Assembly (NCBI RefSeq): GCF_006715305.1
Contig: NZ_VFMY01000002.1
Coordinates: 186,001-250,000, forward strand
Direction of reading: 5' to 3'
Length of the DNA: 64,000 bases
Source: Arthrobacter sp. SLBN-100
GTDB lineage: Bacteria > Actinomycetota > Actinomycetes > Actinomycetales > Micrococcaceae
Within the stretch, counting starts at the first letter, position 1; the number at the start of each line of letters is the position of its first letter. Below are positions 16,344 to 64,000 of this stretch, in pieces. A program made the position numbers and the translations under genes. Below the pieces are notes generated by a model. The model was not told the DNA's origin and made no database searches. It was given only the letters and a program-made list of their open reading frames with translations.

Positions 16344-16346
16344 CAA

Positions 16347-39195: not shown

Positions 39196-39254
39196 GGGCA
39201 GGTGGGTTGTTCATAGCCATGAGCAGCAATGGAGTGCCGTCCTGCTTCACGGCG
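39196..39254. repeat. 59-bp stray fragment of the ThDP gene at 46526
   Basis: Matches 47944-48002 in the same orientation with two mismatches (the stretch encoding LLLMAMNNPPA on the minus strand). It stands alone between unrelated sequences and marks a past short duplication or template switch. Confidence 0.8.
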
Positions 39255-39299
39255 CAGCGCCTGTCCGGCGACCGGGTTGAACCGACGCGGAATATGCAG

Positions 39300-39640: not shown

Positions 39641-39777
39641 GCTGTGGGCACGGCGAAGTCCACTTCTGTTCACACCACAGCTGGGAAGCCGTCTCCTGAA
39701 AGCCCGGTACAAGCCACATGTGGACCCGCCGCGTGCGCTGATGGAGGCGACCCTGGACTGGTTTTCGGTCAAGCCAT

Positions 39778-41442: not shown

Positions 41443-41458
41443 GATTGATCCCGTCGTT

Positions 41459-46525: not shown

Positions 46526-48316
46526 TTAACTGGGCCAGGATCCTTCGATCACCTCGGCCAGGTGGCCAGACTTGGGCGTCCTGTCGCCGACGATCGGGAT
46601 AACGTTGGTCAGCGCACGGACGATGCGTAGACCGGGCTCCGTGCGCACGTCGAGGACGTAGCTGCCTTCGGATGCAAGCGCCCTCTGGATAGCGGGGATC
46701 AGTTGATCCGGCGTATCGACCCGCTCTCCTTCGACTCCGAGGCCACGGGCCACGGTTACAAAGTCGGTGTCTGGCAGGTCGACCCATGGGTTGTCGATGC
46801 CCATTGCCTTCGCTGAGGCGCGGTTGGCCAGCAGGCATCCGTTATTGTCGATTATGACGATGACCTTGAGGCCGTGCTCGGCCAAGTTCGAGAGCTCCAC
46901 GAGGTCGTAGTAAAAGCCCCCGTCGCCGTGGTAGCTAACGACGGTTCGCTCGGGGGCGGCGAGCTTCGCGCCGATGGCGACTGGAAGACTCGCCCCAAGG
47001 GACATGTAGCGCCCGCCGGTCGCCAGCGGGGTCACGGTTTTGTACTGGAACGCTCGGTACATGGCGAACGCGTTGCCGCCGGAGTCCGCCACGACCAAGG
47101 TATCCTCAGGCAGCTGCTCAGATAGTGTGCGGATGAGGAAGTACTGGTTGATGGGCACCTCGGTGCCGTCGAACCAAGCGTCCATCTCCGTTAGCCATTC
47201 GCTCTTAGACGCAGTTACCTGGGCCCTCCACGGGATCAGGCTAGACGACAGTTCGTCGTTGGCCTGCTGCCGGGCATAGGTCAGCAACTGCTTGATGAAG
47301 ACCTTCGCATCGGCGACCACGCCGACAGTGGGCTGAAAAATCTTAGCGATTTCGCGTGGGTCGGAGTCGACGTGGATGACGTCGGTCGGCTTCTCGAGGG
47401 TCCAGGATCCGGTGCTCATCTGAGTGAAGGAAGTGCCGATGGCGAGCCACAAGTCGGAGTGCTGTAGCGCGTCGTTTCCGGAGCGCCAACCGAAGTTGCC
47501 CGATGCCCCGGCATAGAGCTCGTGGTCGTCCGGGAGAACCCCGCGGCCACCCCAGGAGGTGGATACAACCGGCACTCCAAGAAGTTCGGCCAATTCCCTC
47601 AGCTCGTCAGCGGCATCGGATACGTGCACACCCGCCCCAATGTAAATTACCGGGCGCTCTGCGTTCTGCAGAAGCTTCCAGATACGTACTACATCCTCCT
47701 CCTGCGCGGCAGAGGGACTCGGGAACTCCAGCTTCTCGACCTTCATGGTGGTGGTCTGGAACATCGCTGTCTGAGCAAGATCGAGAACCGCCGGGCCGAA
47801 CCGTCCCGTGCTGGCTTCTTTTACCGCCTGACGGACGATGACGGGAAGATCAGCCGCGTCGGTAACCTTTTTGATGTACTTCGAGAGCGGCTTCAACGCT
47901 GGATAGAGCTCCACTGCATCCTGCAACATGTCGCGAGCTTCGAGGGCAGGTGGGTTGTTCATAGCCATAAGCAGCAATGGAGTGCCGTCCTGCTTCGCGG
48001 CGTAAACGACGGGAGCAGTGTGCAGGGCACCGACGACCCAGCTCACCACGGCCGATGCCGCCCGCCGCTTTACCCGGTTATATCCGTAAGACATCCAGGC
48101 AGCGGTGATTTCAGTCCGGCCCCCGAAATCAGCCAATCCCCGCGAAAACAGACTCTGCGTGAGTGAAGGGACCGACCCACCCGTGTAACCAAATACAATT
48201 TCCACTCCGGAGGCGACGAGTGCATCAGCGATTGCCTCGGAGCCTTGTCGGACGACTACGTCAGAGGTTGGGGAGGGGACATCCGCGTCCACCGGGCTAG
48301 TTGTCTCAATAGTCAT
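46526..48316 (-). CDS. ThDP-dependent enzyme, paralogue of the duplicated enzyme
   Basis: A 596-residue ThDP enzyme from ATG 48316, with AGGAG five bases upstream; a GTG two codons earlier is the alternative. The PYR-domain Glu is in GGRTEITAAWMSYGYNRVKR, the middle domain has RPVIYIGAGVHVSDA, and the ThDP-Mg motif is YHGDGGFYYDLVEL through IDNNGCLL. It shares long runs with the 701-residue enzymes (for example WMSYGYNRVKRR and LKPLSKYI), so they probably act on related compounds. It lacks their N-terminal beta domain and leader. It is the first gene of the operon that includes the ring-hydroxylating dioxygenase. An operator-like palindrome lies 277 bp upstream. Confidence 0.9.
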   Translation of the reverse strand: MTIETTSPVDADVPSPTSDVVVRQGSEAIADALVASGVEIVFGYTGGSVPSLTQSLFSRGLADFGGRTEITAAWMSYGYNRVKRRAASAVVSWVVGALHTAPVVYAAKQDGTPLLLMAMNNPPALEARDMLQDAVELYPALKPLSKYIKKVTDAADLPVIVRQAVKEASTGRFGPAVLDLAQTAMFQTTTMKVEKLEFPSPSAAQEEDVVRIWKLLQNAERPVIYIGAGVHVSDAADELRELAELLGVPVVSTSWGGRGVLPDDHELYAGASGNFGWRSGNDALQHSDLWLAIGTSFTQMSTGSWTLEKPTDVIHVDSDPREIAKIFQPTVGVVADAKVFIKQLLTYARQQANDELSSSLIPWRAQVTASKSEWLTEMDAWFDGTEVPINQYFLIRTLSEQLPEDTLVVADSGGNAFAMYRAFQYKTVTPLATGGRYMSLGASLPVAIGAKLAAPERTVVSYHGDGGFYYDLVELSNLAEHGLKVIVIIDNNGCLLANRASAKAMGIDNPWVDLPDTDFVTVARGLGVEGERVDTPDQLIPAIQRALASEGSYVLDVRTEPGLRIVRALTNVIPIVGDRTPKSGHLAEVIEGSWPS

Positions 48317-48329
48317 GTGCACTCCTGCT

Positions 48330-48560
48330 TGTTGGTTATCAGTCGAAGGGATCGCTGAGCCGATCGCCGGCCATAGCGGGCCGGTCGCGCTTGGTTTCCG
48401 CGAGGGAATGAAAGGGACGATGGAGGTGTCGGCGAACCGAAGTCCAGTGGCCCCGCCTTATGTGTCACCAGCTTGGAGGAGCAGCACCGCTCTGTTGCTC
48501 CGCTCGCTCAGATTCAGAACCCCGCTCGTCTTCGTGCGGGGTGGTTGAAAAGAAGTTGTT
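48330..48560 (-). pseudogene. GMC oxidoreductase remnant (both ends joined, centre deleted)
   Basis: Minus-strand reading gives LNLSERSNRAVLLLQAGDT (the FAD-fold end of the GMC N-terminus; compare LSERTTRSVLLLEAGD in the gene at 52946), one stop, then GLRFADTSIVPFIPSRKPSA, which is the conserved GMC C-terminal motif. About 450 codons in between are missing. It sits directly upstream of the ThDP gene, between it and the palindrome at 48593, so the ThDP gene may use the old GMC promoter. Confidence 0.8.
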
Positions 48561-48592
48561 GTGATGGGGGTTGAGAAAAAGCTTAGCGAACT

Positions 48593-48607
48593 TTGACTCC
48601 AAGTCAA
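48593..48607. promoter_or_regulatory. Palindromic operator TTGACTCCAAGTCAA
   Basis: One of three near-identical 15-bp palindromes (others at 54560 and 59612). It lies just upstream of the GMC remnant and the ThDP/dioxygenase operon. It differs from the perfect form TTGACTTCAAGTCAA at one base. Confidence 0.72.
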
Positions 48608-48768
48608 TAGGTGATCAAGTTCACTTTGGGATGTTCGCGAAAGGAGTTTACAGAGCTGGGACATCCTGGGTGACGTGATGATCAGTCGTATTGGGGATCG
48701 CCGACTGTTCCGCGGGAGTTCTAACTGAGGCGCCATACTGGTTAGCGAGCGGTGTGCCCGAGGAATCA

Positions 48769-49300
48769 TGTCAAGATGCCCGCCTCGGTTGCTTCGTGGA
48801 GTCGTTTGATTTTTGCCCGGATGGCCGGCCGTGTTTTGAGGCCTTGTTTGGCGGTGCTGACGGTGCCCGGTGACGGCCCCGGTGCGCTGGAGGTGGCTGG
48901 CGGATCGTATTCTTGCTGACTTTGGCGCTGGCCGGACGTTCGCGACGAGTTTTTGCTGCGGCACAAGTTTGTTGGTCAGCAGTCTTTGCAGCAGTGGTAG
49001 CCGGCGGTCTGGCGGATGATGTGCCAGTTCTTCTGCTCCACGTGGGCACCGTCGTTCTTGTTCCCGGACCGGGACCGGGTGAACGCGAGTGCCTCCTGTT
49101 CCCACCAGCGTAAAAGCTCCTAGTTGATGAACTCTGAGCAGGTGTCCGAGTCGATGCCCAGGACCGGAAAAGGGGCACAAAGCGGTGGCATCTTTGATGG
49201 CGGCGAACACCCATTTCTGGGCCTTGTTCCTGCCGAGCGGCTTCCGTCCAATCGGTCGCGATGTCGGTGATATCAAAGGGTGAAGCAGAACTTCCCAAGG
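48769..49300 (-). pseudogene. Integrase-core transposase remnant
   Basis: Three minus-strand frames give one decayed DDE (rve-type) transposase: FDITDIATDWTEAA, then NKAQKWVFAAIKDATALCPF, then ALAFTRSRSGNKNDGAHVEQ with KNWHIIRQTAGYH, and finally RAIRAKIKRLHEATEAG-like residues. At least three frameshifts are present and no full frame survives. It separates the TetR gene from the ThDP/dioxygenase operon, which may once have been direct divergent neighbours. Confidence 0.7.
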
Positions 49301-49470
49301 GTGTTTGAATGAGTGGGCAAGCGCGTTGACTCATCGAAAGCGCCATGGCTCACAGTGCCGACGCGGCAGGGCGCCGTCCCGGCGGCCATGCCGCTACGCG
49401 GGCATCTTTGATTACTATGACCCCAGTCCCGGTTAACCCGGCCGACACGTCGAACACGTAGAGTGGGTTC

Positions 49471-50121
49471 ATGCGCAGTCAGGATAGTCCCCGTATTGCA
49501 ACGAGAGCGCAAGCCCGCAGAGAGGCCATCGTCGAGGTCGCGATGGCGCAGTTTTCTGAGCGCCGATACGAAGAAGTCTTCATAGACGACGTATGTCGTG
49601 AGGCGGGAATCGCACACGGACTTGTGTCGTACTACTTTGGCGGAAAACGCGGGTTGTTCACTGCCGCCGTCGAGAAGGCCTGGCAGGAAATGCTCGAATA
49701 TGAAAAGCCGCATGAGGGCGAAGTCACCGCTACGGATAAAATCAATGGCTACATTCGCCGCCACTTCGAGTACGTGCACGGCAATCCGAAGCGCTTCACA
49801 ATCCTCATGCACAGTGACAGCGGTGACTCAAGGATTCGCGAGATCGCGCACGCCGCCCGGGACACCGCCGTGGCGCAGCTCATGACCAGCATCGGCTGCC
49901 CCGTCAGTCCACCGCCGAGACTACGACTGGCGATAAAGGGGTGGGCTGGGTTCCTGGACAGCGCAACGCTAGATTGGGTGGCCCATGAGACGTGCCCCAT
50001 TGAAGAAGTTACCGAAATCTGCAGGGAAACACTCATGGCAGCCGTTGGGGTTGCGATCGGCGATCGCGACGGAGAAATGACAGAAGAGCAGACTTTGCGC
50101 CAGGTCGCAAGAATCGCGTAG
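49471..50121 (+). CDS. TetR-family transcriptional regulator
   Basis: A 216-residue TetR regulator. The DNA-binding domain is at about residues 12-60 (AMAQFSERRYEEVFIDDVCR through AHGLVSYYFGGKRGLF). The C-terminal ligand domain begins with the linker INGYIRRHFEYVHGNPKRF. It is divergent from the ThDP/dioxygenase operon, with the palindrome at 48593 in between, and so is a candidate for the protein that binds the 15-bp palindromes. The palindrome is not found in its own promoter. A decayed relative lies at 39778-40378. Confidence 0.9.
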   Translation: MRSQDSPRIATRAQARREAIVEVAMAQFSERRYEEVFIDDVCREAGIAHGLVSYYFGGKRGLFTAAVEKAWQEMLEYEKPHEGEVTATDKINGYIRRHFEYVHGNPKRFTILMHSDSGDSRIREIAHAARDTAVAQLMTSIGCPVSPPPRLRLAIKGWAGFLDSATLDWVAHETCPIEEVTEICRETLMAAVGVAIGDRDGEMTEEQTLRQVARIA

Positions 50122-50489
50122 CTCGATCTGATTAGCGTCGACACGGAAGCGGAGGCTTCATTGAACCGGACCTTGGCTGACCATTTCTGCGTACGGAACT
50201 TTTTGAGGGAAAGGCCGCTAGACGATATGTAGCAGGAAGTGACCGCTCCGGCGGTCTGGTCCTTCAAAAGGCCCATTGTCGCCGGACTGATTCCGATGCT
50301 GATGGCGCTCTGTCAGAAGGCCGACGAAGTGTGGTCCGGAAGGTCTGCCTCCTGCCACCGTCCTCAAAGTCGTTGACCAGGCAGGCACAACGGCTTCGGC
50401 CGGGCCCTTTTCCTGCTGCGCTCAGGGATCGCCCCAGTGGTCGCGGCGCCCGTCCGGATAACGGGTGAAAAAAGCGTTGTCAAAAAATG
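50122..50489. other. Intergenic region, no gene recognised
   Basis: Follows the TetR gene. No open frame looks like a known protein. It leads into IS remnants. Confidence 0.4.
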
Positions 50490-50725
50490 CGCTGCAGCTG
50501 GCCCGGCTGCCGAAGCTGGGTGAGGTCGGGGTAAGAATTCCCTCAGTAAATCAGGAAGCAGCCCGTAACTATTCCGCTCCCGCGAAGACGTCCGCGGAAC
50601 CCTACAGCGTTCCCGGCACCGGATCTCCGAGTTCTCATTGCGTCAAGGCGTCCTTTTTCGGCGGGTATGGCTGGACAGGCGTTCATGAACTGTGGCTGTC
50701 CGCCAACACTTCGGTGCACCGGTAG
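50490..50725 (+). pseudogene. IS110-family transposase remnant
   Basis: Encodes LARLPKLGEVGVRIPSVNQE and, after changes of frame, GYGWTGVHELWLSA, both typical of IS110-family transposases. It is related to the fragment at 39315-39390. It is too short and frameshifted to be active. Confidence 0.58.
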
Positions 50726-50823
50726 GAGAGTGGACCTATGGATTGTCGGTGACGATCGAAAAGTGAGCCATTGGTGACGGTTGAAAACTGGGCTACCCGT
50801 TCCAAACGATTGGGTGGGTGATC

Positions 50824-51850
50824 ACAGTGGAGGATTGTGCGCTTATTCGGCGGTTCCCTGTGGCCGAGGGTGAATCGTATGAGGTCGATGGTGCCGCGGT
50901 TGGGGATCTCCAGGGATACGGTCGCGAAGGCAGCCACTTCTGACGGTCCTCCAGGGCGCTGTTCCGCAGCGCCTGATCTGGGATAACGAAACCTCCATCG
51001 GCCGCCGGAACACCTACGCCACTGAGAGTCGCGGGTGTTCGCCGGGGTCTTGGCCACCCGGATCGTGCAGGTAAAACCCTACGACCCGGAAAGCAGGGCG
51101 TGGTCGAGCGGACCAACCAGTCATGGAAACGCCGTTCCTGCCGGGCGGGTCTTCAGCTCACCAGAGGACTTCAACCTCCAGCTCGCGCAGTGGCCGCCGA
51201 CGGCCAACGCCCGGCTCCACAAGCTTACTGGCACCCGCTTGGACCTGCTGGCTGCGGACAAAGCGGCAATGCTGGCGCTGCCTCCCGTTCCACCGGTTAT
51301 TGGGTTCACTTCACGGGTCCGGCTCCCTGAGGACTACTACGTCCGGATGGGATCCAACGACTACTTCTCCGTTCACCCAGAAGCCATCGCCTCTTCGTCG
51401 ACGTCACCGTCGACCTCGGAACCGTCACGATCACCCTGGACGCCAGGCCCGTCGGCACCCACCCCCGGTTCTGAGGAACCGGACTCACCATCGACCCAGA
51501 CCACGTTGAGGCGGTAAAGTCACTGCGGATGGCCTTCAAAATCCCGGTGGGTGAACCAACCGGGCTGCCCGACCTGGCCGACTACGACCGGGCATTCGGC
51601 GTCATGTTAGACGATGGCAGGTCGCTTATTGGCCGAGGCTAAGAAAACCAATGGCCGGACCAGTACTACTCCCGGGCGATAGAAGCACCTCGGATCCGTG
51701 AAGCAGCAACCGGCTCGCTTACCTTGCCCGTGAAGGCTGCTGGACCCGCGAGCAATACCTCGCCGGTGTCCTGTCCGGCCCCGGGCCGCCGGGTTCCCGG
51801 CCTGGAAGTCACTCGAGGACTTCAACTTCGATCACCAGCCCGGCCTTAAA
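50824..51850 (+). pseudogene. IS21-family istA/istB remnants
   Basis: 50828-50945 gives VEDCALIRRFPVAEGE and, in another frame, MRSMVPRLGISRDTVAKA (the IstA helix-turn-helix). A deletion follows. Then 51030-51520 gives RSFTSPEDFN-like VFSSPEDFNLQLAQWPPTAN, LLAADKAAMLALPPVPPVIG and RVRLPEDYYVRMGSNDY, the C-terminal part of IstA. 51650-51850 carries IstB N-terminal pieces (EAPRIREAAT, EGCWTREQYLAGVL). Several frameshifts make both inactive. Just after it, 51990-52023 reads VSYVAHANPN, resembling the start of another IS transposase. Confidence 0.7.
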
Positions 51851-52033
51851 AGTGACGCCACGCGCACCTGGCCCCGGCCTGAACTCACGCACCTCCCAGC
51901 TAGTACGTCTGGAACAGCGTGGCGTAAGTAAAGGGCGGGGCCTCCGGTATCAATTTTGGGCTACCACACTCATCGACGCCCGGAGGCCCCCGTGTCCTAC
52001 GTTGCCCATGCCAATCCGAACTGACATCCAGGG

Positions 52034-52846
52034 TCAGTTGTGCCGGACTAGAACTCCACCATCGACAACAAAAACAGCGCCTGTGATAAAGGAGGACGCA
52101 GGGGAAGATAGCAGGAGTGCGAGCCCCTCGATTTCTTCCGGCTGGGCCAGTCGACCCAATGCCGTTGCCCGGCGGAGTTCGGCGAGCATGTCATCGTTCC
52201 CAGGATTGTTGCGCCCAATTGCCGTCAAGAACGACCCAGGTGCGATGGCGTTGACGTTTATCCGCCGCGCCGCCAATTCTGCCGCTGCATTGCGCACTAA
52301 GTGAGAAACGGCAGCCTTCGACGCTGAGTACGCGTAGCCCACAAGCGGATCCGCGCGGTGTCCTGCGATGGAGGAGGTGACTACGATGCGGCCTCCGTCA
52401 TTCATCCGCGCGGCTCCTGCGCGGATCGTGTGCATGGTGCCCGTCAAATTCGTCTCAATTACCCGCTGCCAGCGTTCGTCGTCAACGTTCTCTAGGGTGC
52501 CGACCCCGAATTCACGCCCGAGGCCGGCGGATATTCCCGCATTCGCAAACACTATGTCGAGTCCGTCGCTCCATTCTGCCGCTGCCTGAACTGCCGCTTC
52601 GACCGCAGAGCGATCACGGATGTCGGCCGTCACTCCCCGTACGGAGCATCCTTCGTTTGCTAGAGCTTCCACGGCCCCGTCAAGGGCTTCTGAGTCTAGG
52701 TCAGCCAGCACCACCCGCGCGCCGTTTCGGGCCAGCACGCGGGCGAATGCCAGACCGAGCCCAGACGCTGCCCCTGTAACCAAGGCGCCTCGACCGGCCA
52801 CGTCGAACATTCGCGCTGGATCGGAATTGTGGTGAGCCGTGGTCAC
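52034..52846 (-). CDS. SDR-family oxidoreductase
   Basis: A 270-residue SDR. The cofactor motif is VTGAASGLGLAFARVL, Asp in LADLDSEAL favours NAD, the active-site Ser is in VTSSIAGHR, and catalytic Tyr/Lys are in YSASKAAVSH. The C-terminal FITGAVFVVDGG is typical. It lies 99 bp after the GMC oxidoreductase gene on the same strand, so they are probably co-transcribed. Both enzymes would act on alcohols. The GMC promoter carries the 15-bp palindrome, putting this SDR in the same proposed regulon. Confidence 0.88.
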   Translation of the reverse strand: MTTAHHNSDPARMFDVAGRGALVTGAASGLGLAFARVLARNGARVVLADLDSEALDGAVEALANEGCSVRGVTADIRDRSAVEAAVQAAAEWSDGLDIVFANAGISAGLGREFGVGTLENVDDERWQRVIETNLTGTMHTIRAGAARMNDGGRIVVTSSIAGHRADPLVGYAYSASKAAVSHLVRNAAAELAARRINVNAIAPGSFLTAIGRNNPGNDDMLAELRRATALGRLAQPEEIEGLALLLSSPASSFITGAVFVVDGGVLVRHN

Positions 52847-52945
52847 TGCGGCTTCCCTTCACCTAAGTCGACTAAGCGCCGGAAATTCCGGGTGCGACTG
52901 TCGGTCGTTTCGTTCTCCTCATCGAACATCACTTCGGCAGTCGCT

Positions 52946-54511
52946 CTATCGTGCCTGGTTGTCATCAAAGAACGCGCTAATCCGCTCGCCCACCATGAAG
53001 GCGGTCGCGTTCGGCCCGCGCGAGGTGATCTCAGGGTAGATCGAAGTGTCGGCGACTCGTACGCCTTGGAGGCCGTGCACCCGCCCGAATTGGTCGACCA
53101 CTGCGGTGCGGTCAGACTCGGGACCCATGCGACACGTGCACGATGGGTGACCCACCCCAAATAGATTCGACCGAATCCAGGTGTCTGCGGCTTGGTCACC
53201 TTCGATATCGGACTTGGCGAGGTTCAGCATGCGCCCCCCAATTTCCTTCATCGCTTTCCCGTCAAACAGCTCAGCCGCGGTCCTCACGGCTTCTCGAAGA
53301 CGACGAAGATCGCTTTCCTCGGCGAGCAGGTTCCAGTTCAGGTCTGGCTGTTCGTACGGATCGGCGGACTTCAGCGAAAGCTTTCCTCGGCTGTCTTGCT
53401 GTTGGAGGATGATCACGATCATGGGATTACCGATTGTTGCATCCTGAACATCCCGAGGCAGCCCCATCATGTCGCCAACCGAGGAAACAAACGGCAGCAG
53501 CTCAAGATCTCCTTCTCTGCTGGACCCATACGACGTCCAGTTCAGGGCGCTCGTCATGACGCCGCTACCCGGAATATACGGAGACCTGCCATCAAATTCG
53601 TACTGCAGGGCCAGCTGTGGGTGGTCTGTGAGGTTCATCCCGACGCCTGGCAGATCCTGAACCACTTCAATACCCAGCTCCCGGAGTTGATCCGCCGGAC
53701 CGACACCGGAAAGCAAGAGAATCTGCGGGGAGCGGAGTGCGCCAGCAGATATCACGGTCTCCGCTGCTCGGAACTCACGACGCTCACCGGCGACGTCAGC
53801 TTCAACACCAACACATACCTTCCCCTCGAAGAGAAGCCTGAGTACGCGGGCATTGCCTTGGACTGTGAGATTCTGCCGTTGCATCGCTGGTAGAACGTAT
53901 GAGTAGCCTGCACTCGCACGATTTTTGCCGTCGATATTCAGCGGGACGGGTCCAACGCCATCCGCGCCTACTTCGTTCTTATCGGGCACATCCGCGTGGC
54001 CTAAGTCTTGACAGGCCGCGGAAAACGCCTGAGTGAATTCAGGCGCTCTATCAGCGGGCTCGCGACGCACCGTGACAGGCCCCTGCTTTCCATGGGCGTC
54101 TCCTCCGAAATCAAGATCATTCTCGAGCTTTTTGAAGTACGGGAGGACCTCCTCATACGACCAGGCGCTATTCCCCCACGAGGCCCACCGGTCAAAGTCA
54201 TTCTTTGTACCCCGCTGGAAGTATGCCAGGTTCACAGCGCCGGAACCTCCGATGCCGCTGCCACGCGCCACCATCGCTTCCCGGCCCGGCATCAGGGTCC
54301 CTCCTACTTGATAGTTGTGAGGGCCACCCGGGATGATTCCGTTCAAGCTTGACGGATCGAGAACAGCCTCCGGAAATTTACTAAGGTCACCGTCATATAC
54401 GTCACCTGCCTCCAACAGCAGGACTGACCTTGTGGTGCGTTCACTCAATCGGGCGGCCAGAACCGAGCCGCTTGAACCTGAGCCAACCACGATTACGTCG
54501 TACTCAACCAT
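52946..54511 (-). CDS. GMC-family FAD-dependent oxidoreductase (alcohol oxidase/dehydrogenase)
   Basis: A 521-residue GMC enzyme. The FAD fold is VIVVGSGSSGSVLAARLSER, followed by the signature around ARGSGIGGSGAVNLAYFQRG and the second signature GALRSPQILLLSGVGP. At the C-terminus, GHPSCTCRMG (with the active-site His) and GVRVADTSIYPEITSRGPNA are seen; the usual catalytic Asn follows in GPNATA. I chose ATG 54511 (MVEYDVIVVG, with AGGA upstream); another ATG lies four codons earlier. Substrates of such enzymes include choline, aryl alcohols and polyethylene glycol. A shredded relative lies at 48330. Confidence 0.9.
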   Translation of the reverse strand: MVEYDVIVVGSGSSGSVLAARLSERTTRSVLLLEAGDVYDGDLSKFPEAVLDPSSLNGIIPGGPHNYQVGGTLMPGREAMVARGSGIGGSGAVNLAYFQRGTKNDFDRWASWGNSAWSYEEVLPYFKKLENDLDFGGDAHGKQGPVTVRREPADRAPEFTQAFSAACQDLGHADVPDKNEVGADGVGPVPLNIDGKNRASAGYSYVLPAMQRQNLTVQGNARVLRLLFEGKVCVGVEADVAGERREFRAAETVISAGALRSPQILLLSGVGPADQLRELGIEVVQDLPGVGMNLTDHPQLALQYEFDGRSPYIPGSGVMTSALNWTSYGSSREGDLELLPFVSSVGDMMGLPRDVQDATIGNPMIVIILQQQDSRGKLSLKSADPYEQPDLNWNLLAEESDLRRLREAVRTAAELFDGKAMKEIGGRMLNLAKSDIEGDQAADTWIRSNLFGVGHPSCTCRMGPESDRTAVVDQFGRVHGLQGVRVADTSIYPEITSRGPNATAFMVGERISAFFDDNQAR

Positions 54512-54559
54512 GTTAATCCTCATTGATATATGGATAGTGGTTCAGATAGAACCCTAGTT

Positions 54560-54574
54560 CTGACTTGAAGTCAA
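54560..54574. promoter_or_regulatory. Palindromic operator CTGACTTGAAGTCAA
   Basis: Second copy of the 15-bp palindrome, 49-63 bp upstream of the GMC start, so within the promoter region. It differs from the perfect form on the other strand (TTGACTTCAAGTCAA) at the last base. Confidence 0.75.
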
Positions 54575-54673
54575 TAGCGGCTTTGTGGACTGGATACTAA
54601 CGGTCGCTTAAGCGGTGGGGACTGGACGGGGGGCTGACGCCGCCTCGGGGCATCACAAGTTGATATGGGCCCA

Positions 54674-54951
54674 CTGTTGTCGGTTTTTTGGTTTTCATGG
54701 CCAGTTCGGGGAGCCGCTGTGGTTGCATTCGTGAGGGTGATGTCTGGCATCACCGCTTGTCACGCGAGAATGCTTGTTTCCCCAGGTGTCCTCACCTTGA
54801 ATAGTTCTAGGACGTAGATCACGACCGTCCACCTCGTACACGCGTTACGTTTTCTGCCGAAGTGTTCCGCGGCCAAAGGCGGCCCGGCATCTGGAATTTT
54901 GTGGCCGGATTGCGCCGCGTGTGCCGGGACGAGCCAAGGAGACTTTTTATT
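54674..54951 (+). promoter_or_regulatory. Shared leader/promoter region, copy 3
   Basis: Same as 20015-20292 apart from one base (T at 54693). It includes CCAAGGAGACTTTTT before the ThDP start at 54952. Confidence 0.75.
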
Positions 54952-57057
54952 ATGGTAAGTGCTACGCCAACCACGCAGCCGACGGCACGAAAAGAAGAGA
55001 CCCCGGCCGCCATTGATGGTGCGTGGGATCTCACGATTCGCCCCGCGGCGGCTCCCGCGCAGAAGCTTGTGGTGAACTTTTCCAGTGACGGCAGCTCGGT
55101 CTCTGCGGAGATGGAAGGTCCTTTCGGCCGCGCCGTGGGTCAAGGCATTGCCTCTGACCGTGACGTCTCTTGGACGGTGACCCTTGAGGGCTTGCCGGGG
55201 CCGTCGCGGTTCCGCGCCGACGTCGATGGTGATGTGTTGCTTGGCGACATGACGGTCGAGATGGGTGTCTCCAAGATGACCTGGAGTCTGGAGGGTGTCC
55301 GTAGTGGTTCTGAAGCCCGGATTAAGTCGCGGGAGGGTTCAGATGCGCTCGTCGAGACGCTGGTTTCGAGCGGCGTCGAGTACGTGTTCGGCTTCACCGG
55401 AGGGGTGTCGACAGCACTGGAACGGAGCTTCGCCGGAAGCGGCCTTAAAGACTTGAACGCCCGTACCGAGCTGTCGGCGGCATGGATGTCCTATGGCTAT
55501 AACCGTGTGAAGCGGCGGCCTGCCTCGGCCGTGCTCACTTGGGTCGTGGGAGCTCTGCACGCATCCCCCGTGGTGCACGCGGCGAAGCTCGACACGACAC
55601 CGCTGCTGATGATGTTCATGGAGAGCGCGGCAGCTTGGGATGCCCGTGATGTCTTGCAGGACGGCACCGACCTTTATCCAGCGTTCAAGCCGTTGTCCAA
55701 GTACATCAGGCGGGTTGTCGATGGTGAGGACATTCCCCTGGTCGTTCGCCAGGCGGTCCTCGCGGCCGGCACCGGCAAGTTCGGGCCGGCGGTGCTCGAC
55801 CTGACGCAGGAGGCGATGTACCAGCGGACGACCGTTAAGACAGAGGCGCTTTCGTGGCCCTCACCGCCGGCCGCTGACGAGGACTCACTGCAGCGCGCCG
55901 TAGACCTAATCAAGTCCGCAAAAAGGCCGGTGATCCTGGCCGGTGCAGGCGTGCACCTGTCGGACGCGACCGCCGAGTTGCGCCGCTTTGTCGAGGCCAC
56001 GGGCATCCCGGTCGTGTCAAGCGGCCCTGGCGGGCGCGGCGTCCTTCCGGATGACCACCCACTTTACGCCGGGGATATGGGCCAGTGGGGCTATTTCGAG
56101 ACCGGAACGGAGTTTGCTGAAGAGGCCGACCTCTGGATTGCCGTCGGATTCTCCTTCTCGCAGACAGCGACAATGTCCTGGACCGTCAAAAAGCCCGATC
56201 AGGTCATCCACGTGGACGTCGATCCGACGCAGCTAGGCCGGATTTTCCAACCGACGGTCAGCATTGTCTCGGACGCTAAGATGTTCCTTGGCCAACTACA
56301 CCGCGCTACGCAGGTTTCGGGCCTGAATCGACCTGCGGAAGGCGACGCGGACACGCTCGCAAAGATCGCTCAGGCCAAGAGCGCCCACTTTGAAATGCTG
56401 CGCTCCTTCGTCGGGGCAGACCCAATAATGCCCGCTGCCGTTGGTCAAGCCCTCGCGGCGGAACTTCCTCCCGAGACCATCATCGTCAACGACGAGGGCT
56501 TCATGGCCCCAGGTATGGTCTTCACCGAAGACAAATATCCAGCAGGGTTCGCCTCTCCGCTTGGGTTCCACTACGATTCGCTGGGATCGACACTGCCGGT
56601 GGCAATCGGCGCAGCACTCGCCGCGCCCGACCATCTGGTCGTCAGTGTCGGCGGTGACGGTGGCTTTTTCTACGACCTCAGCGATCTGGCAGTGCTTGCC
56701 GAGAACAACCTGAAGGTCATTTGTATCAAGTTCAACAACGGTGGTCTGTACGGCGGTAAGACCGGTCGTGCCCAAGGAGGCACCGCCGCTGTCCCACACG
56801 ATCACTGGACAAACTACGCCGACGTGGATTACGCCGGCGTTGCCAGGGCAATGGGCGTAGCCGCTGAGCGTGTCGAAAAGGCAGATGAGCTGAACGCGGC
56901 AATTCGCCGGGGCGTCGAGGCGGACGGCCCATACTTCATCGAAGTCGCAGCAGGAGGAAGCACACTGCACCTCATTCTGAGCTCATGGGCTGGTCCGAAC
57001 GCGCCGCGCAAATTCGGTCATGGCGATCGATCCGTCGAAGGCTCCTGGCCGAACTAA
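54952..57057 (+). CDS. ThDP-dependent enzyme with extra N-terminal beta domain (copy 2)
   Basis: The 701-residue translation is identical to copy 1 at 20293 (N-terminal MVSATPTTQPTARK, beta domain, PYR domain with ARTELSAAW, and GGDGGFFYDL through FNNGGLYGG). The complete lack of change over 2.1 kb indicates a recent duplication or gene conversion. Here the neighbours are GMC oxidoreductase (divergent) and acyl-CoA ligase (downstream, same strand). Two copies would raise the dose of this enzyme. Confidence 0.92.
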   Translation: MVSATPTTQPTARKEETPAAIDGAWDLTIRPAAAPAQKLVVNFSSDGSSVSAEMEGPFGRAVGQGIASDRDVSWTVTLEGLPGPSRFRADVDGDVLLGDMTVEMGVSKMTWSLEGVRSGSEARIKSREGSDALVETLVSSGVEYVFGFTGGVSTALERSFAGSGLKDLNARTELSAAWMSYGYNRVKRRPASAVLTWVVGALHASPVVHAAKLDTTPLLMMFMESAAAWDARDVLQDGTDLYPAFKPLSKYIRRVVDGEDIPLVVRQAVLAAGTGKFGPAVLDLTQEAMYQRTTVKTEALSWPSPPAADEDSLQRAVDLIKSAKRPVILAGAGVHLSDATAELRRFVEATGIPVVSSGPGGRGVLPDDHPLYAGDMGQWGYFETGTEFAEEADLWIAVGFSFSQTATMSWTVKKPDQVIHVDVDPTQLGRIFQPTVSIVSDAKMFLGQLHRATQVSGLNRPAEGDADTLAKIAQAKSAHFEMLRSFVGADPIMPAAVGQALAAELPPETIIVNDEGFMAPGMVFTEDKYPAGFASPLGFHYDSLGSTLPVAIGAALAAPDHLVVSVGGDGGFFYDLSDLAVLAENNLKVICIKFNNGGLYGGKTGRAQGGTAAVPHDHWTNYADVDYAGVARAMGVAAERVEKADELNAAIRRGVEADGPYFIEVAAGGSTLHLILSSWAGPNAPRKFGHGDRSVEGSWPN

Positions 57058-57342
57058 AAACCAGCACCAAAGCCCAACCGATGACCACGTACCAGAACGA
57101 GCAACGATTGAGGCCCCTGGCTTCCCCGGCGTCCTGCAAGGCGCCGAGGAGGCCCGCCCGTTCACCAGCAGCGGCATCGAGGCCAATCCTCATCCACCTT
57201 GACGCACCCTCACTGGCTCACGCCTGCCGCGATGCCCAACCCGGCGGCAATCCCCTTGACCAAAAAGTAAACCCGCCGAGGACACCAACCTGATATCCAT
57301 GAGACGCGTTAACATCAACCCCTTCTCAACGGACTCATGGTG

Positions 57343-57647
57343 GGAGGAAACTCTACTTTTCGACGGCCCCCGCCCTGACGCTCGCCGGCTTAGGGCCGGG
57401 GCTCCGCTATGAGGGCACTTGTGACGTGGCGGGCCCTCGGCTAACGCCCACAACTGGGGCGGGCGCTGGCTTGCAGATCTCATTTTCCGACCGTCTTCAA
57501 CTCGAACAAGACTCTCGCCGTCTACACGAAAAATTCGATGTGAAATTCCTGTAAGGCCCCTACGCAATTTTGGCAGTCGACGTTAACGGTCCAACGCAAC
57601 TTGAAGGTTGCGTTGTAACGTTCCCGTCGGCCTCCGGAGAGGTTCCC
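57343..57647. other. Intergenic region with acyl-CoA ligase promoter
   Basis: Unique sequence after the repeat. No gene is seen. It contains the strong palindrome at 57592-57615 and the ribosome-binding GGAGAGG of the next gene. Confidence 0.45.
57592..57615. promoter_or_regulatory. Palindrome CAACGCAAC-N6-GTTGCGTTG (putative operator)
   Basis: Perfect 9-base arms around TTGAAG, centred about 45 bp before the acyl-CoA ligase start. I found no second copy of this motif in the window. It is a likely site for a dimeric regulator. Confidence 0.62.
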
Positions 57648-59414
57648 ATGTCTGACCAGTCCCCCGCCGAGATCCTACGCCAGGCCCGCGACCAGCTCCT
57701 GGCTTGCCGGACCGAGCCGGAGACCGCCCACCGCACCTTTTCCTGGCCCCGGTTCGAGCACTTCAACTTCGCCTCGGACTGGATCGATGACATCGCATCC
57801 GGGGCCCGCGCGGGGCAGCCCGCCTTGGTAATCGTTGAGGAGGATGGCTCTGCGGAACGGCGCAGTTACCGGGAATTAGCCCGACGCTCTCATCAGGTGG
57901 CCGCTTGGCTTGCCGGCCTTGGTATGCAGCGCGGAGACCACGTCATCGTCATGCTGGGTAACCAGGTCGAACTCTGGGAGACCATGCTGGCCTGCATCCG
58001 CATCGGTGCGCCCGTTATCCCGTCCACCGTGATGCTCAGCCCAGTTGACCTTGCCGACAGGGTCGAACGCGGCCAAGCATCCTGGGTCGTCACCGCCGGT
58101 TCTGAGGCTGCCAAGTTCGATGACGTCCCCGGCGACTTTCATATCGTGCAGATCGGCGCCCGAATAGAAGGCGGCACCACTGACCGGGCGGTGCACGACT
58201 GGCAGGACTCCTTCGCCGCCCCCCACGACTTCCGCATCGAGGAGCCGACACGTGCAGATGAGACGATGCTGCTGTACTTCACCTCGGGGACGACCTCCAT
58301 GGCGAAGCTCGTGGAACACACCCATACGTCTTATCCCGTGGGCCACCTCTCCACTATGTATTGGATCGGTCTCGAGCCCGGGGACGTGCACCTGAACGTC
58401 GCCTCCCCCGGATGGGCCAAGCACGCTTGGTCCAACTTCTTTGCTCCGTTTATCGCTGAGGCGACTGTTTTCATTTACAACTACCGCCGTTTCGATGCAA
58501 AGTCCCTGATGAACCAGATGGACCGGGAGGGCGTCACGAGCTTCTGCGCACCGCCCACCGTCTGGCGTATGCTGATCCAGGCCGACCTGTCCCAGTTGGA
58601 AAACCCGCCAACCAAGATCGTGGCGGCCGGCGAACCCCTCAACCCCGAGGTCATCGCCCAGGTGGAGAAGGCTTGGGGCAACCAAATTCGGGACGGCTTC
58701 GGGCAGACGGAGTCTACCCTGCAAGTTGCCAACACCCCGGGACAACCGGTGCGCCCGGGGGCTATGGGCCGCCCGTTGCCGGGCTACGACGTCGTGCTGA
58801 TCGACCCGGACACGGGCGAGGAGTCCGCACAAGCCGGTGAACTGTGCCTGCGCCTGGATCCCCGGCCGGTCGGGTTGACGGTGGGCTACTGGGGCGATCC
58901 GGAGCGGACGGCCGACGCCTTCAGGGACGGCATCTATCACACGGGTGACTTGGTGTCCCGCGATGCGGACGGCATCATCACCTACGTGGGGCGCAATGAC
59001 GACGTGTTCAAGGCCTCCGATTACCGCCTTTCCCCCTTCGAACTCGAGTCCGCTGTGATGGAACATCCGGCCGTCGCCGAGGTGGCCGTGGTTCCTTCTC
59101 CCGATCCCATCCGGTTGGCAGTCCCCAAGGCCTATGTCCGGCTCGCGGAAGGCTGGGAACCCAACGAGGAAACCGCCCGTTCCATCCTCCAGCACTGCCG
59201 GGACAGGCTCGCCGCATACAAGCGGATCCGGCGCCTAGAGTTCCACGAGCTGCCGAAAACAATCTCCGGCAAGATTCGCCGCGTCGAACTGCGCCGACGG
59301 GAAGAACAGATTCATACACATGGCGGGATCGTAACGGCCAAGCCAGATAGTCAAGACCTCGGGGTCGAGTACAGCGACGAACTACTGCGGCAGAGACAGG
59401 AGGTCGACAACTGA
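57648..59414 (+). CDS. AMP-forming acyl-CoA synthetase (aromatic acid-CoA ligase-like)
   Basis: A 588-residue member of the acyl-activating superfamily. The P-loop is LLYFTSGTTSMAKLVEHTH (usual TSGTTGxPK; the Gly is Ser here). DGFGQTEST is motif A5, YHTGDLVSRDADGIITYVGR includes the ATP-binding Asp, and the C-terminal catalytic Lys is in LPKTISGKIRRVELR. I chose ATG 57648 (MSDQSPAEIL, with GGAGAGG upstream). It resembles 2-aminobenzoate/benzoate/medium-chain acid ligases. Activation of salicylate or benzoate for the gentisate route is conceivable, but it stands 20 kb from those genes. A 25-residue C-terminal tail follows the Lys domain. Confidence 0.9.
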   Translation: MSDQSPAEILRQARDQLLACRTEPETAHRTFSWPRFEHFNFASDWIDDIASGARAGQPALVIVEEDGSAERRSYRELARRSHQVAAWLAGLGMQRGDHVIVMLGNQVELWETMLACIRIGAPVIPSTVMLSPVDLADRVERGQASWVVTAGSEAAKFDDVPGDFHIVQIGARIEGGTTDRAVHDWQDSFAAPHDFRIEEPTRADETMLLYFTSGTTSMAKLVEHTHTSYPVGHLSTMYWIGLEPGDVHLNVASPGWAKHAWSNFFAPFIAEATVFIYNYRRFDAKSLMNQMDREGVTSFCAPPTVWRMLIQADLSQLENPPTKIVAAGEPLNPEVIAQVEKAWGNQIRDGFGQTESTLQVANTPGQPVRPGAMGRPLPGYDVVLIDPDTGEESAQAGELCLRLDPRPVGLTVGYWGDPERTADAFRDGIYHTGDLVSRDADGIITYVGRNDDVFKASDYRLSPFELESAVMEHPAVAEVAVVPSPDPIRLAVPKAYVRLAEGWEPNEETARSILQHCRDRLAAYKRIRRLEFHELPKTISGKIRRVELRRREEQIHTHGGIVTAKPDSQDLGVEYSDELLRQRQEVDN

Positions 59415-59769
59415 GGGCGGAGGCTCATGCATGGGGAATCTTTGGCCTCGGCGTGTTGCGTGTGCTCCCATCGAAGCCAGGCGCCCCAAGCTGCTTTTCC
59501 TCAACAGGACCAGAGACTTCAAGCGCTACGCAACGCACTCCTCGGACGGCCTCTAAAGCCGTTGTTTAACGCACAGCTAAGCGGAAGCTTCTTGTGAGCC
59601 GACATGGTTGATTGACTTCAAGTCAACTACGGCATAGCATCTGGGAACGTGCTCGCGGCCACATTTTCTTGGCCAGCCTCAGTTCACCAGTTGGTGCCGG
59701 CACCTCGACGTATTACCCGATAAATCCACGTCTTTAATCCGATAAATCCACGTCTGCAATGAGGGAGAC
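59415..59769. other. Intergenic region before the ABC importer
   Basis: No gene. It contains the palindrome at 59612-59626 and a small direct repeat (GATAAATCCACGTCT at about 59720 and 59740) just before the ribosome-binding GAGGGAGAC. Confidence 0.5.
59612..59626. promoter_or_regulatory. Palindromic operator TTGACTTCAAGTCAA (perfect copy)
   Basis: Perfect 15-bp palindrome (arms TTGACTT and AAGTCAA) about 145 bp before the substrate-binding protein start. It matches the copies at 48593 and 54560. Confidence 0.75.
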
Positions 59770-61047
59770 ATGACCAAAATTTTCGCGTCCCGCCACACTC
59801 ACATAAGCACGATTCTCACCCTCCTGCTTGTTGGCGGTGTAGTTTCAGGCTGCTCAACCGATGCAAGCGAATCACCCGATGGCACTGCTGGATCGTCAGA
59901 CGACATCCTTATCGGGACCATGGCACCAATCGGAACGCCTCAGGCCGATCTCGGTGGAATACCGGCGGCACTCGAGGCCGCCGCTGCCGATGTCAACAAG
60001 AACGGGGGCATCAACGGTCGCAACGTGCGGATAGTCACGTGCAACACTCAGTACGGGTCGAACCAAGAACTTGCCTGTGCTCGCCAGCTCGTTAAGGATG
60101 GGGTCGTCGCCGTCGCTGGTATGAACAACGTCTTCCAGGGTGCAGCGGTGGAAAAGATCTTCGCCGATGCTGACATCGCCGACATAGCGAATACTGGTCC
60201 GCTCGTCGAGGCATATCAGGGGACGAATACGTTTCCGCTGACTTGGGAAACAGGTAGCTTCATCCCGTGCGCGAGTTCCCCGATTGCGGAAGCAACTGGT
60301 GGCAAGGTCGTACAGTTGGTTGCTTTCCAAGATCCTGCTTCCGAGCAGTTCGCCAAACTGATGCAACGGAGCGCTGAAGCCTCGGGGTTGAAGTGGAACG
60401 ACCCTATATTTAATCCGCCTACTGTTTCAGACTTTTCGCCGTATGTTGCAAGGGCACAGGCCTCGGGTGCCGACATTGTAGTGATTATGCAGCTTGGCTC
60501 AGGGCCGCAGGCGTTCGTGAAGGCGGCCAGCGCTGTTGAGGCCGACTTTGCAATCTGTACTGCACTGGGCCTCTCGGGCGCGGGTGGATGGGACGGTCTT
60601 GGAAGCGCAGAGGAAAACCTTTACGTTGGCGCGACGTTCAGGCCGTTGAGCGAGAGCACAACTGTGCCGATGTTGGAGCGCTTGGTTAATTCTTACGCGG
60701 ACCTCCAGGCTTCCAGTAGCGACTACGCTGCATACTCCTCTACTAATCCTGCGGACATGCAAGCCCAAGGGGTGGCGGCATGGCTTGGAGTGCAAGCTCT
60801 TGCTCAGGTAGCGCGAACAATCGAAGGCGACGTCACTCCGACTAGCGTTATCGGAGCGCTTCCCACCGCAAAGGTGAGCATGGGGGGGATTATCCCCGAC
60901 ATCGATTTTACGAAACTGACGAGCGCGGGTGAATACGAACGTGTGTTCAACTCCGACGCCTACCTGTGGAAGTGGGATGCCAGCAACAATGACTACACGC
61001 TTGCCGGTGAAGTCGCGGACACGCTTGAACTGACATCGGGTCGATGA
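59770..61047 (+). CDS. Branched-chain amino acid-type ABC substrate-binding lipoprotein
   Basis: A 425-residue solute-binding protein of the LivJ/type-1 periplasmic fold. The lipobox ends at Cys28 (GGVVSGC), followed by a Ser/Asp-rich linker. Family features are GTMAPIGTPQADLGGIPAAL, VNKNGGINGRNVRIVTCNTQ and QLVKDGVVAVAGMNN. GAGGGAGAC lies just before ATG 59770. LivJ-like proteins in catabolic islands often bind aromatic acids or amides rather than amino acids. It starts an operon with two more importer genes and carries the 15-bp palindrome upstream. Confidence 0.9.
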   Translation: MTKIFASRHTHISTILTLLLVGGVVSGCSTDASESPDGTAGSSDDILIGTMAPIGTPQADLGGIPAALEAAAADVNKNGGINGRNVRIVTCNTQYGSNQELACARQLVKDGVVAVAGMNNVFQGAAVEKIFADADIADIANTGPLVEAYQGTNTFPLTWETGSFIPCASSPIAEATGGKVVQLVAFQDPASEQFAKLMQRSAEASGLKWNDPIFNPPTVSDFSPYVARAQASGADIVVIMQLGSGPQAFVKAASAVEADFAICTALGLSGAGGWDGLGSAEENLYVGATFRPLSESTTVPMLERLVNSYADLQASSSDYAAYSSTNPADMQAQGVAAWLGVQALAQVARTIEGDVTPTSVIGALPTAKVSMGGIIPDIDFTKLTSAGEYERVFNSDAYLWKWDASNNDYTLAGEVADTLELTSGR

Positions 61048-61102: not shown

Positions 61103-61837
61103 GTGACTACGACTGACTCAAGCACTCCCCTGATGGAAGCGGTGAAGGTTTCGTCTGGTTATGGATCAGGATTGGCAATCCGCGACGTCAGCCTGGAGGT
61201 AAGGCGCGGCGAAGTTGTAGCGGTGTTGGGGGCCAACGGCGCCGGCAAAACCACGACGCTACTGACGATGGTTGGGGAATTGAAGCCGGCCAAGGGCGAC
61301 GTTCTCTGGCAGGGCGCGAAAGCACAGCTTCCATTGCATCGACTGGCCCGAAAGGGACTTTGCTTCGTTCCCGATGACGGCGGTGTTTTCCGCGGGCTAA
61401 CGACGCGTCAGAACCTTGCTCTGTCTCGGCACGATGACCGCGACAGCGCGTTAAACACCTTTCCTGAATTGCGTCGCATGCTTGATCGACGTGCCGGCCT
61501 GCTTTCGGGCGGAGAACAACGCATGTTATCAGTCGGCCGTGCGCTTAGTTCGCATACCGAACTGATGATTGCCGATGAGCTCTCCCTCGGATTGGCACCC
61601 ATGACTGTTGGGGTGCTTCTGCGGGCGATTCGACAGGCCGCCGACAAAGGTTTGGGTGCACTCATTGTCGAGCAGCATGTGCATCGGATTTTGGATATTG
61701 CCGATCGCGTGTATGTCATGCAGCGCGGCCGGGTGACGCTGTCCATGGACGGGGCAACTGCACGTAAGAACATCGCGGAAATTCAGGCCCAGTACCTCGT
61801 ATCACCCGATAGCGGAATGAGTAAGGAAAACGCATGA
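61103..61837 (+). CDS. ABC transporter ATP-binding protein, LivF type
   Basis: A 244-residue ATPase starting at GTG 61103. Walker A is LGANGAGKTTTLL, the Q-loop region is CFVPDDGGVFRGLT, the signature is LSGGEQRMLSVGRAL, Walker B is LMIADELSLGLAP, and the switch His is in VEQHVHRIL. It is typical of LivF in branched-chain-type importers. A 23-codon frame (61834-61905) overlaps its stop but does not look like a gene. Confidence 0.9.
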   Translation: MTTTDSSTPLMEAVKVSSGYGSGLAIRDVSLEVRRGEVVAVLGANGAGKTTTLLTMVGELKPAKGDVLWQGAKAQLPLHRLARKGLCFVPDDGGVFRGLTTRQNLALSRHDDRDSALNTFPELRRMLDRRAGLLSGGEQRMLSVGRALSSHTELMIADELSLGLAPMTVGVLLRAIRQAADKGLGALIVEQHVHRILDIADRVYVMQRGRVTLSMDGATARKNIAEIQAQYLVSPDSGMSKENA

Positions 61838-61897: not shown

Positions 61898-64000
61898 ATG
61901 GGTGAAGTACTTCAGTTTGCCATCATCGGTCTGGGTCCCGGGGCCATCATTGGGCTACTAGCCGTGGGCCTGGTGATGATTTTCCGAGGCGCCGGGGTAG
62001 TCAACCTGTCGCATGGTGCGTGCGCCATGTTCAGTGGCTATGTGTACGCGCATCTTCGCGGTAGCGATCTGCCGGTCGCGGCGAGTCTCATCTTGGCAGT
62101 AGTGATCGCCGCGCTCATTGGTCTGGCGACCGACCAGCTGCTTCTGCGTAGGCTGCGCAACTCCTCTGCGCTCACTCGGCTGATCGCCACCATGGGAGTG
62201 CTCCTGCTTCTCCAGTCAGTTAGCGCAAAGATCTGGGGAGTTGTTCCGAAGACGGTCGAATCGATTCTTCCGTCCAGTGCGATACACCTCGGTGGCGTGT
62301 CTTTCTCGTCGGACAGGTTGTGGTTGCTGCTCATCGCAATTGTTGTCACGACGATCATTGCCGTTGTTTGGCGGTTCACTCGTCTGGGCTGGATTGCCGA
62401 AGGGGCATCCGAGAATCAGCGCCTGGCTTCGACGTTGGGGTGGTCGCCGGAGTTGGTATCCGGAATGACCTGGACTATTGGTGCAGGGCTAGCAGGGCTA
62501 GCAGGTATCCTGATTGCGCCCATCTCACAGCTGGACACTCGAACGCTCCCCCTTCTCGTTGTGCCTGCATTGGCCGCAGCGCTGATCGGTGGCTTCAGAT
62601 CATTCCCGATCACGTTGATCGGCGCCGTTGGCATCGGAATTGCGCAATCTGAGACCGCGCAGTTTGTGAATGTCCCTGGCGCCCCGGATGCCTTGCCGTT
62701 CCTCGTCATCGTGATTGGCCTGATGGTGAAGGGTTCCGCTCTGCCTCTTCGGGGCCACTCGTCGGATAGGTTGCCTCGAGTGGGTTCGGGCCGGGTACGG
62801 TGGATACCTTTGCTTATCGTGAGCGCCGGCGTTATCGCATTGCTAACCGCTGTGAACTCACTCGACTGGCTCGCTGCACTCACCAGCACAATCGCAGTCG
62901 CAACGATCTTGCTGTCATTCATTGTGCTGATTGGTTACACGGGGCAGGTCTCCTTGGCGCAGTACGCCATCGCGGGATTCGGCGCGCTAATTGCCGCTCA
63001 ACTATCTAAAGCCGGCACGCCCTTCGTTCTAGCGCTGCTTATCGGAGCCGTCGGCGCTGCCATCGTCGGACTCGTATTCGCGGTACCAGCGCTGAGAACT
63101 CGAGGCGTCAATTTGGCGATTGTAACGCTGGGACTTGCTGTGGCAGCGTATAGCCTTATTTTCACCAGCACGAGCTTCGCCGGTGGCGTCGGAGGGATCC
63201 TAGTCGAGTCCCCTACGATTCTTGGCTTTAGTATTGACCCTGTCCTATATCCCCAGCGCTATGCCGTGTTCGCGTTCGTGATGTTCGTCTTGCTGGCACT
63301 GGGTGTCGCAAGACTTCGCCGCAGCAGCGTAGGACGAATGCTTCTCGCCATTAGGGACAACGAGCAGGCTGCTGCGTCCAACGGTGTGAACATCCTGGGT
63401 GGAAAACTGGTCGGCTTCGGCATTGCAGGCGCGATAGCGGGAGTGGGCGGCATCGTGCTTTCTTTCCAGTCGCAGGCGATCGCCTTCGGTGGCTACGATC
63501 CCTTAAGTTCGATCAGCATGATGGCCTACTCGGTACTTGGGGGCGTGGGATATCTATTCGGGCCACTCTTCGGGGCTACGTTGTCCCCAGGCTCGCTGGG
63601 GGCGATCATCTCCCTGAACTACCCGGAGACCACCTCGTGGCTGCCGATTATCGGCGCTGTCGCTCTCCTGCTGACGATCCTGATAAGCCCCCATGGCTGG
63701 GTACATGATGCGCTTAAGCCGTTTAGTGCAGTTGCGCGATGGTGGGATTTTCATGTGTCGGTCGGGTTGGCAAAGCTGGGCCGGACGGATCGCGACACTG
63801 GCGTGAAGGTCAATGCCACCGATGCGACTTCTGATACTTCTCGACCACTGCCAAAGGGTCTGAGCGTGGGCGACATCACGGTTCGCTACGGTGGAAACAT
63901 TGCCGTCAATGCGGTTGGGCTCGCTGTGTCTCCTGGAAAGATCGTCGGGCTTATCGGCCCAAATGGTGCGGGCAAGACATCTTTCATGGACGCAGTGACT
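61898..64000 (+). CDS. Fused LivH-LivM-LivG ABC transporter permease/ATPase (cut by window end)
   Basis: One open frame of at least 701 codons from ATG 61898 to the end of the window. The LivH part (residues 1-295) begins FAIIGLGPGAIIGLLAVGLV and has RGAGVVNLSHGACAMFSGYV. A spacer leads to the LivM part (about 310-600), with IGYTGQVSLAQYAIAGFGAL and the cytoplasmic loop VGRMLLAIRDNEQAAASNGV. A linker of about 40 residues is followed by the LivG ATPase, starting with LSVGDITVRYGGNIAVNAVG and its Walker A GLIGPNGAGKTS. With the LivF gene upstream this would complete the importer. The ribosome-binding site is weak (AGGGATGG). Confidence 0.88.
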   Translation, partial: MGEVLQFAIIGLGPGAIIGLLAVGLVMIFRGAGVVNLSHGACAMFSGYVYAHLRGSDLPVAASLILAVVIAALIGLATDQLLLRRLRNSSALTRLIATMGVLLLLQSVSAKIWGVVPKTVESILPSSAIHLGGVSFSSDRLWLLLIAIVVTTIIAVVWRFTRLGWIAEGASENQRLASTLGWSPELVSGMTWTIGAGLAGLAGILIAPISQLDTRTLPLLVVPALAAALIGGFRSFPITLIGAVGIGIAQSETAQFVNVPGAPDALPFLVIVIGLMVKGSALPLRGHSSDRLPRVGSGRVRWIPLLIVSAGVIALLTAVNSLDWLAALTSTIAVATILLSFIVLIGYTGQVSLAQYAIAGFGALIAAQLSKAGTPFVLALLIGAVGAAIVGLVFAVPALRTRGVNLAIVTLGLAVAAYSLIFTSTSFAGGVGGILVESPTILGFSIDPVLYPQRYAVFAFVMFVLLALGVARLRRSSVGRMLLAIRDNEQAAASNGVNILGGKLVGFGIAGAIAGVGGIVLSFQSQAIAFGGYDPLSSISMMAYSVLGGVGYLFGPLFGATLSPGSLGAIISLNYPETTSWLPIIGAVALLLTILISPHGWVHDALKPFSAVARWWDFHVSVGLAKLGRTDRDTGVKVNATDATSDTSRPLPKGLSVGDITVRYGGNIAVNAVGLAVSPGKIVGLIGPNGAGKTSFMDAVT

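Follow-up and report, generated by a model that had tools for sequence, protein, structure and literature searches.

RutR and BetI are regulators of the TetR domain family, and the RutR operator has TTGAC half-sites. In Azoarcus sp. CIB, the TetR-family protein MbdR is described as the repressor of the anaerobic 3-methylbenzoate pathway, from which it is released by 3-methylbenzoyl-CoA (CoA, coenzyme A); it acts through a single palindromic operator sequence shared by several promoters of a catabolic cluster that includes an ABC importer and a CoA ligase, and the operators overlap promoter elements (PMC4424350). Here we describe a similar arrangement in the soil-type bacterium Arthrobacter sp. 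SLBN-100, in a 64,000-nucleotide stretch (the window, positions 186001-250000 of contig C2 in a two-contig genome of 4,942,454 bp). A 15-bp palindrome of the form TTGAC-N5-GTCAA precedes three catabolic units, and an intact TetR-family gene, like RutR and BetI in its domain family, lies on the plus strand at 49471..50121. At a probability of roughly 0.8, judged from sequence comparison, this TetR represses all three units through the palindrome: a Liv-type importer, a GMC oxidoreductase with a short-chain dehydrogenase (SDR), and a set with a thiamine-diphosphate (ThDP) enzyme and a Rieske dioxygenase. As with MbdR, a pathway intermediate may release the repressor. The two systems differ in that MbdR recognizes ATAC-N10-GTAT and has operators at its own promoter (PMC4424350), whereas none is seen at the window TetR.

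The palindrome occurs at the three places where the original prediction had put it. A perfect copy, TTGACTTCAAGTCAA, lies before the importer at 59612-59626 (putative operator copy 3). Two further copies carry one change each: TTGACTCCAAGTCAA on the plus strand at 48593-48607 (copy 1), before the minus-strand operon with a GMC relic, ThDP1 and the Rieske genes, and TTGACTTCAAGTCAG on the minus strand at 54560-54574 (copy 2), between the GMC gene and a second ThDP gene, ThDP2. Scanning the window with up to three mismatches gave exactly these sites and no others. They count as six strand-wise matches, a number that none of 100 shuffles reached (mean 1.12, maximum 5). A genome-wide scan, proposed as a check with the original prediction, gave just these three places at up to one mismatch; at two mismatches there are two more, and a reversed control is about equally frequent. 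The core TGACT-N3-AGTCA, TGACTNNNAGTCA, is exact at three genome places, all in the window and within 11 kb of one another. When one mismatch is allowed, its 48 places do not outnumber the 60 of its reversed control, so it is the exact core alone that is special. TTGAC-N5-GTCAA is exact at five genome places, three of them in the window, and its reversed control at four. Among 149 other genomes of the genus, seven have a single copy with up to one mismatch, and the reversed control gives 17 hits in 15 genomes; because these counts are at background, the palindrome is not a genus-wide motif. All three sites fall outside genes with Pfam matches, the one at 48593 within a 272-residue open reading frame that has no match. 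A possible weak fourth site at 17974-17988, TTGACCTTCCGTCAA, which is among the five exact TTGAC-N5-GTCAA places, was left out; its inner bases differ, and no clear target gene was seen.

In the reading direction of its gene, each site starts with TTGACT, which is usable as a -35 box with a weak, presumptive -10 box 16-17 bp further on. The proposed importer promoter (59612..59640, plus strand) reads TTGACT-17-TAGCAT and passes a consensus scan. Those of GMC (54546..54574, minus strand, TTGACT-17-TTCTAT) and of the ThDP operon (48580..48607, minus strand, TTGACT-16-TAAGCT, the left half of the palindrome being the -35) were assigned by eye and missed by the scan. With the TTGACT half serving as -35 box, a protein bound to the palindrome would block the promoter, as a repressor does. 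In the mechanism we propose, a TetR dimer would bind the 15-bp site and keep RNA polymerase off the promoters of the Liv-type importer, of GMC/SDR and of ThDP1/SDR/Rieske dioxygenase, and the divergent ThDP2/acyl-CoA ligase genes might also be repressed from operator copy 2. A substrate or intermediate of the pathway would act as inducer and release TetR. We infer binding by TetR, and repression rather than activation, from the sequence, and both the inducer and the pathway substrate are presumptive.

The overlap with a -35 box could also be read as a sign that no shared operator exists, and that TTGACT is simply promoter consensus, inherited with promoters of common descent in a duplicated mosaic region, the palindrome being due to chance. 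In favor of this view, one half of the motif coincides with a -35 box, a GMC gene or relic follows two of the three sites, whose descent may be shared, duplications and relics abound in the region, and the blind significance within the window is modest. However, the three promoter regions are barely alike in alignment beyond the 15 bp, and the importer promoter is tied to no GMC gene. Two comparisons described below also speak against this explanation: by our own reading, the palindrome of two Streptomyces loci lies off any -35 box, and beside relatives of the TetR a spacing of 5 alone is enriched. We therefore regard chance and common descent as a highly improbable account of the three sites, and return to the reading in which they are operators of the TetR.

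The protein encoded at 49471..50121 belongs to the TetR/AcrR family (PF00440 TetR_N, 38.7 bits vs a cut-off of 24) and has a TetR_C_46 ligand domain (PF21943, 33.7 bits vs 27). Among 150 of 165 candidates scored, it is the only one of 34 TetR_N matches in the genome to lie on the 326-kb contig C2. Neither BetI nor RutR fits its identity: against NCBIfam equivalogs it scored 47.9 (cut-off 201.3) and 42.2 (118) bits for BetI, and 24.9 (368) and 25.9 (230) bits for RutR. The gene had been proposed as the nearest regulator candidate because it is divergent from the first site. The divergent orientation stands, yet the gene is about 860 bp off, and a decayed transposase lies in between. This insertion-sequence relic (about 48757..49412, minus strand) has 70-78% DNA matches to transposase-bearing plasmids, and an insertion sequence may have split an older region of TetR gene and operator.

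A protein search at E ≤ 1e-10 returned 16 proteins including the TetR itself, the five closest others being 52-63% identical. From an eight-sequence alignment used to scan species genomes, 80 of 116 confirmed loci were kept. Six of these (L023-L028) are 30-45% identical across most of the protein length, and the remaining 74 served as controls, although one control, L029 (25% identity), also matches over most of its length. TTGAC-N5-GTCAA is exact in three of the six relatives' loci and in none of the 74 controls. We then added the 29 best relatives recovered as loci from about 110 matches in 394 genomes of the class, for a total of 35 loci. In the 1 kb preceding the matched TetR start, the motif is found with up to one mismatch in 15/35 loci vs 1/53 controls, and exactly in 5/35 vs 0/53. 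We prefer the control count of 1/53 to the 0/62 obtained near position 10000, since at least three of those 62 (L067, L069, L097) have their TetR elsewhere. Every other spacing from 0 to 12 gives 0-4 of the 35 loci, and the enrichment is thus confined to spacing 5. When the loci were sorted by eye according to recognition helix, the upstream motif was seen in five of seven with AHGL, the type to which the window TetR belongs in the alignment, in the single AKGL locus, in eight of nine with SRGL, in one of three with AYGL and in none of 15 with ASRAL. Seven SRGL loci of one genus, g36 (L120, L125, L126, L128, L130, L131, L132), have TTGAAC-N3-CGTCAA at 52-61 bp before the matched start, which is likely a related autoregulatory operator.

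These comparisons also bear on whether the shared operator, if real, could serve another regulator that switches the same three promoters. Candidates do exist in the genome: an IclR-type gene at 7305 or 16654, LysR-type genes at 27441/38113, a MarR-like gene at C2 172325-172858 (assigned by reading its translation) and 33 TetRs on contig C1. Moreover, the promoter of the TetR gene at 49471 itself carries no site. A different regulator is nevertheless unlikely in our view, because the comparison, which among the candidates covered this TetR alone, shows the spacing-5 motif next to its relatives and in step with their recognition helix. The comparison, which the Streptomyces loci extend, supports the idea of a single regulon under the TetR at 49471.

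Two of the AHGL loci lack an upstream site, those of Streptomyces coacervatus (L023) and S. griseoruber (L024), and each has two palindromes between its ThDP and GMC genes. There, the TetR gene is convergent with the ThDP gene, which is itself divergent from GMC; the window likewise has a divergent GMC-ThDP2 pair, around the site at 54560. The Streptomyces ThDP gene is 65-67% identical to window 54862-57057, GMC 47% and TetR 44-45% identical to their window counterparts, and L023 also holds a second ThDP2 relative (64%), a Rieske alpha subunit (61%) and an acyl-CoA ligase (41%). The intergenic region contains CTGACTGCCAGTCAG and, about 160 bp on, TTGACTGCCAGTCAG in L023 or CTGACTGCCAGTCAG again in L024. 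Both clusters thus share with the window the core TGACT-N3-AGTCA between ThDP and GMC, together with a related TetR, ThDP2 and GMC. They differ in the convergent orientation of TetR and ThDP, in the inner bases GCC of the palindrome and, as already mentioned, in its position relative to the -35 box. No Liv importer match was found in the 20-kb L023 and L024 loci (E ≤ 1e-12). Williamsia soli (L025) has a site roughly 300 bp upstream of its TetR match, and a second one 84 bp ahead of a gene whose translation reads like a flavin adenine dinucleotide (FAD) hydroxylase.

Several observations weigh against repression of the three units by the TetR at 49471. Its own start carries no copy of the site and hence no sign of local autoregulation, although many relatives have one, and the transposase relic separates the gene from the nearest site, about 860 bp upstream. 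In Markov shuffles of the window, 9 of 300 hold a perfect palindrome with 7-bp arms plus at least two near-copies, and for 5-bp half-sites families with three members are common (58 of 60 shuffles reach at least three). The blind significance within the window is therefore modest, and the case rests on position and comparison. The consensus scan gives three promoter-like sites in the region vs a shuffle mean of 4.5, and of the three proposed promoters it recovers the importer's alone. If copies with up to one mismatch are counted across the whole of the 20-kb loci, the motif discriminates poorly (5/6 relatives vs 25/74 controls). The 35 loci behind the upstream counts are not independent: L026 and L105, with the same length and the same sites, look like one contig, and seven of the 15 loci with an upstream motif come from the genus g36. 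Finally, the intergenic regions of L023 and L024 are 92% identical overall, so that conservation of the palindrome between them adds little.

The gene contents claimed for the three units were correct according to domain matches. Downstream of operator copy 1, on the minus strand, lie ThDP1 (46526..48322), a TIM-barrel isomerase-like protein (45549..46448), the short-chain dehydrogenase SDR1 (44490..45254), a ferredoxin reductase-like protein (42859..44073) and the alpha (41459..42826) and beta (40918..41580) subunits of a Rieske dioxygenase. The GMC remnant reported before this operon is real. It consists of N-terminal (48452-48511) and C-terminal (48383-48454) gene pieces at 48383..48511 on the minus strand, and was found by a focused search, an earlier one at E ≤ 1e-3 having given no second GMC match. 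Because the ThDP leader holds these pieces, two of the three operators sit at present or former GMC promoters. At operator copy 2, the minus strand encodes the intact GMC oxidoreductase (52946..54523), which exceeds the NCBIfam MftG cut-off (450.8 vs 387.45 bits), and SDR2 (52034..52846), another short-chain dehydrogenase. The divergent ThDP2 (54862..57057, plus strand) is possibly also under this copy, with an AMP-forming acyl-CoA ligase downstream (57570..59414, plus strand). Operator copy 3 precedes the plus-strand importer genes for a Liv-type substrate-binding protein (59770..61047), an ATPase (61103..61837) and a permease frame that runs into an ATPase domain (61898..64000), which is cut by the window end and continues in locus L013.

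Of the solved relatives, cyclohexane-1,2-dione hydrolase is the best for ThDP2 and a naphthalene dioxygenase for the Rieske alpha subunit. The gene set would fit a ring-degradation route, and judging by synteny it is plausible that the three units form one coherent catabolic route, as had been suggested. Elsewhere in the window, 14512-16377 encodes a strong linalool dehydratase/isomerase domain (PF18566, 370 bits), a hint of terpenoid degradation in the region. A second GMC oxidoreductase gene, 43% identical, lies 18 kb past the window (L013:17673-19268, C2 267673-269268), and no exact core motif was found near it.

The region contains several duplications and relics. A 2.67-kb segment with the entire ThDP2 gene is present twice, at 54674-57342 and 20015-22682, with 99.9% identity. 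The duplication begins 100 bp after operator copy 2, and the ThDP2 copy at 20 kb therefore lacks the operator. A third, partial copy of the 5' part of this segment is seen at 24863-25203 (87%). The relic of a second TetR of the same kind, with stops and a 155-bp tandem repeat, occupies 39787-40130; beside it is a short piece of ThDP1 (39176-39286), and 39176-40292 is a decayed copy of the same module. A 1.29-kb inverted duplication with a LysR-type regulator gene is present at 27419-28709 and 37756-39046 (99.7% identical).

Contig C2 (325,900 bp) looks plasmid-like. In a search of plasmid records the region was absent, the sole match being 48 bp. The importer binding protein has a single distant plasmid match (31% identity), and plasmid matches to the TetR are all below 60% identity (about 26-30% among the matches listed). 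Of 205 other genomes of the genus, five contain matches to the GMC protein at E ≤ 1e-100, with only 43-45% identity. The TetR profile matched its own genome alone, both among 395 genomes of the family (E ≤ 1e-25) and among 396 of the order (E ≤ 1e-28).

We can speculate on what these occurrences have in common. TetRs with an AHGL(V/L)SY helix, together with the TTGAC-N5-GTCAA operator, could constitute an as yet undescribed regulatory module of actinobacteria that passes from genus to genus, an idea we hold tentatively and at a little less than even odds. The same tentative reading has the module traveling with a ring-degradation route in which two relatives of cyclohexane-1,2-dione hydrolase, both ThDP enzymes, are joined by a GMC oxidoreductase and a Rieske dioxygenase. 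Among the titles listed from an open-licence library, none dealt with this operator or with the Streptomyces TetR-ThDP-GMC cluster.

For Arthrobacter sp. SLBN-100, this reading unites three units scattered over a mosaic contig of plasmid-like appearance into one testable regulon with a proposed regulator and operator. TTGAC-N5-GTCAA beside an AHGL-type TetR offers a DNA signature for finding the same pathway in other actinobacteria, and the identity of the inducer would reveal what the importer and this unusual set of enzymes degrade.

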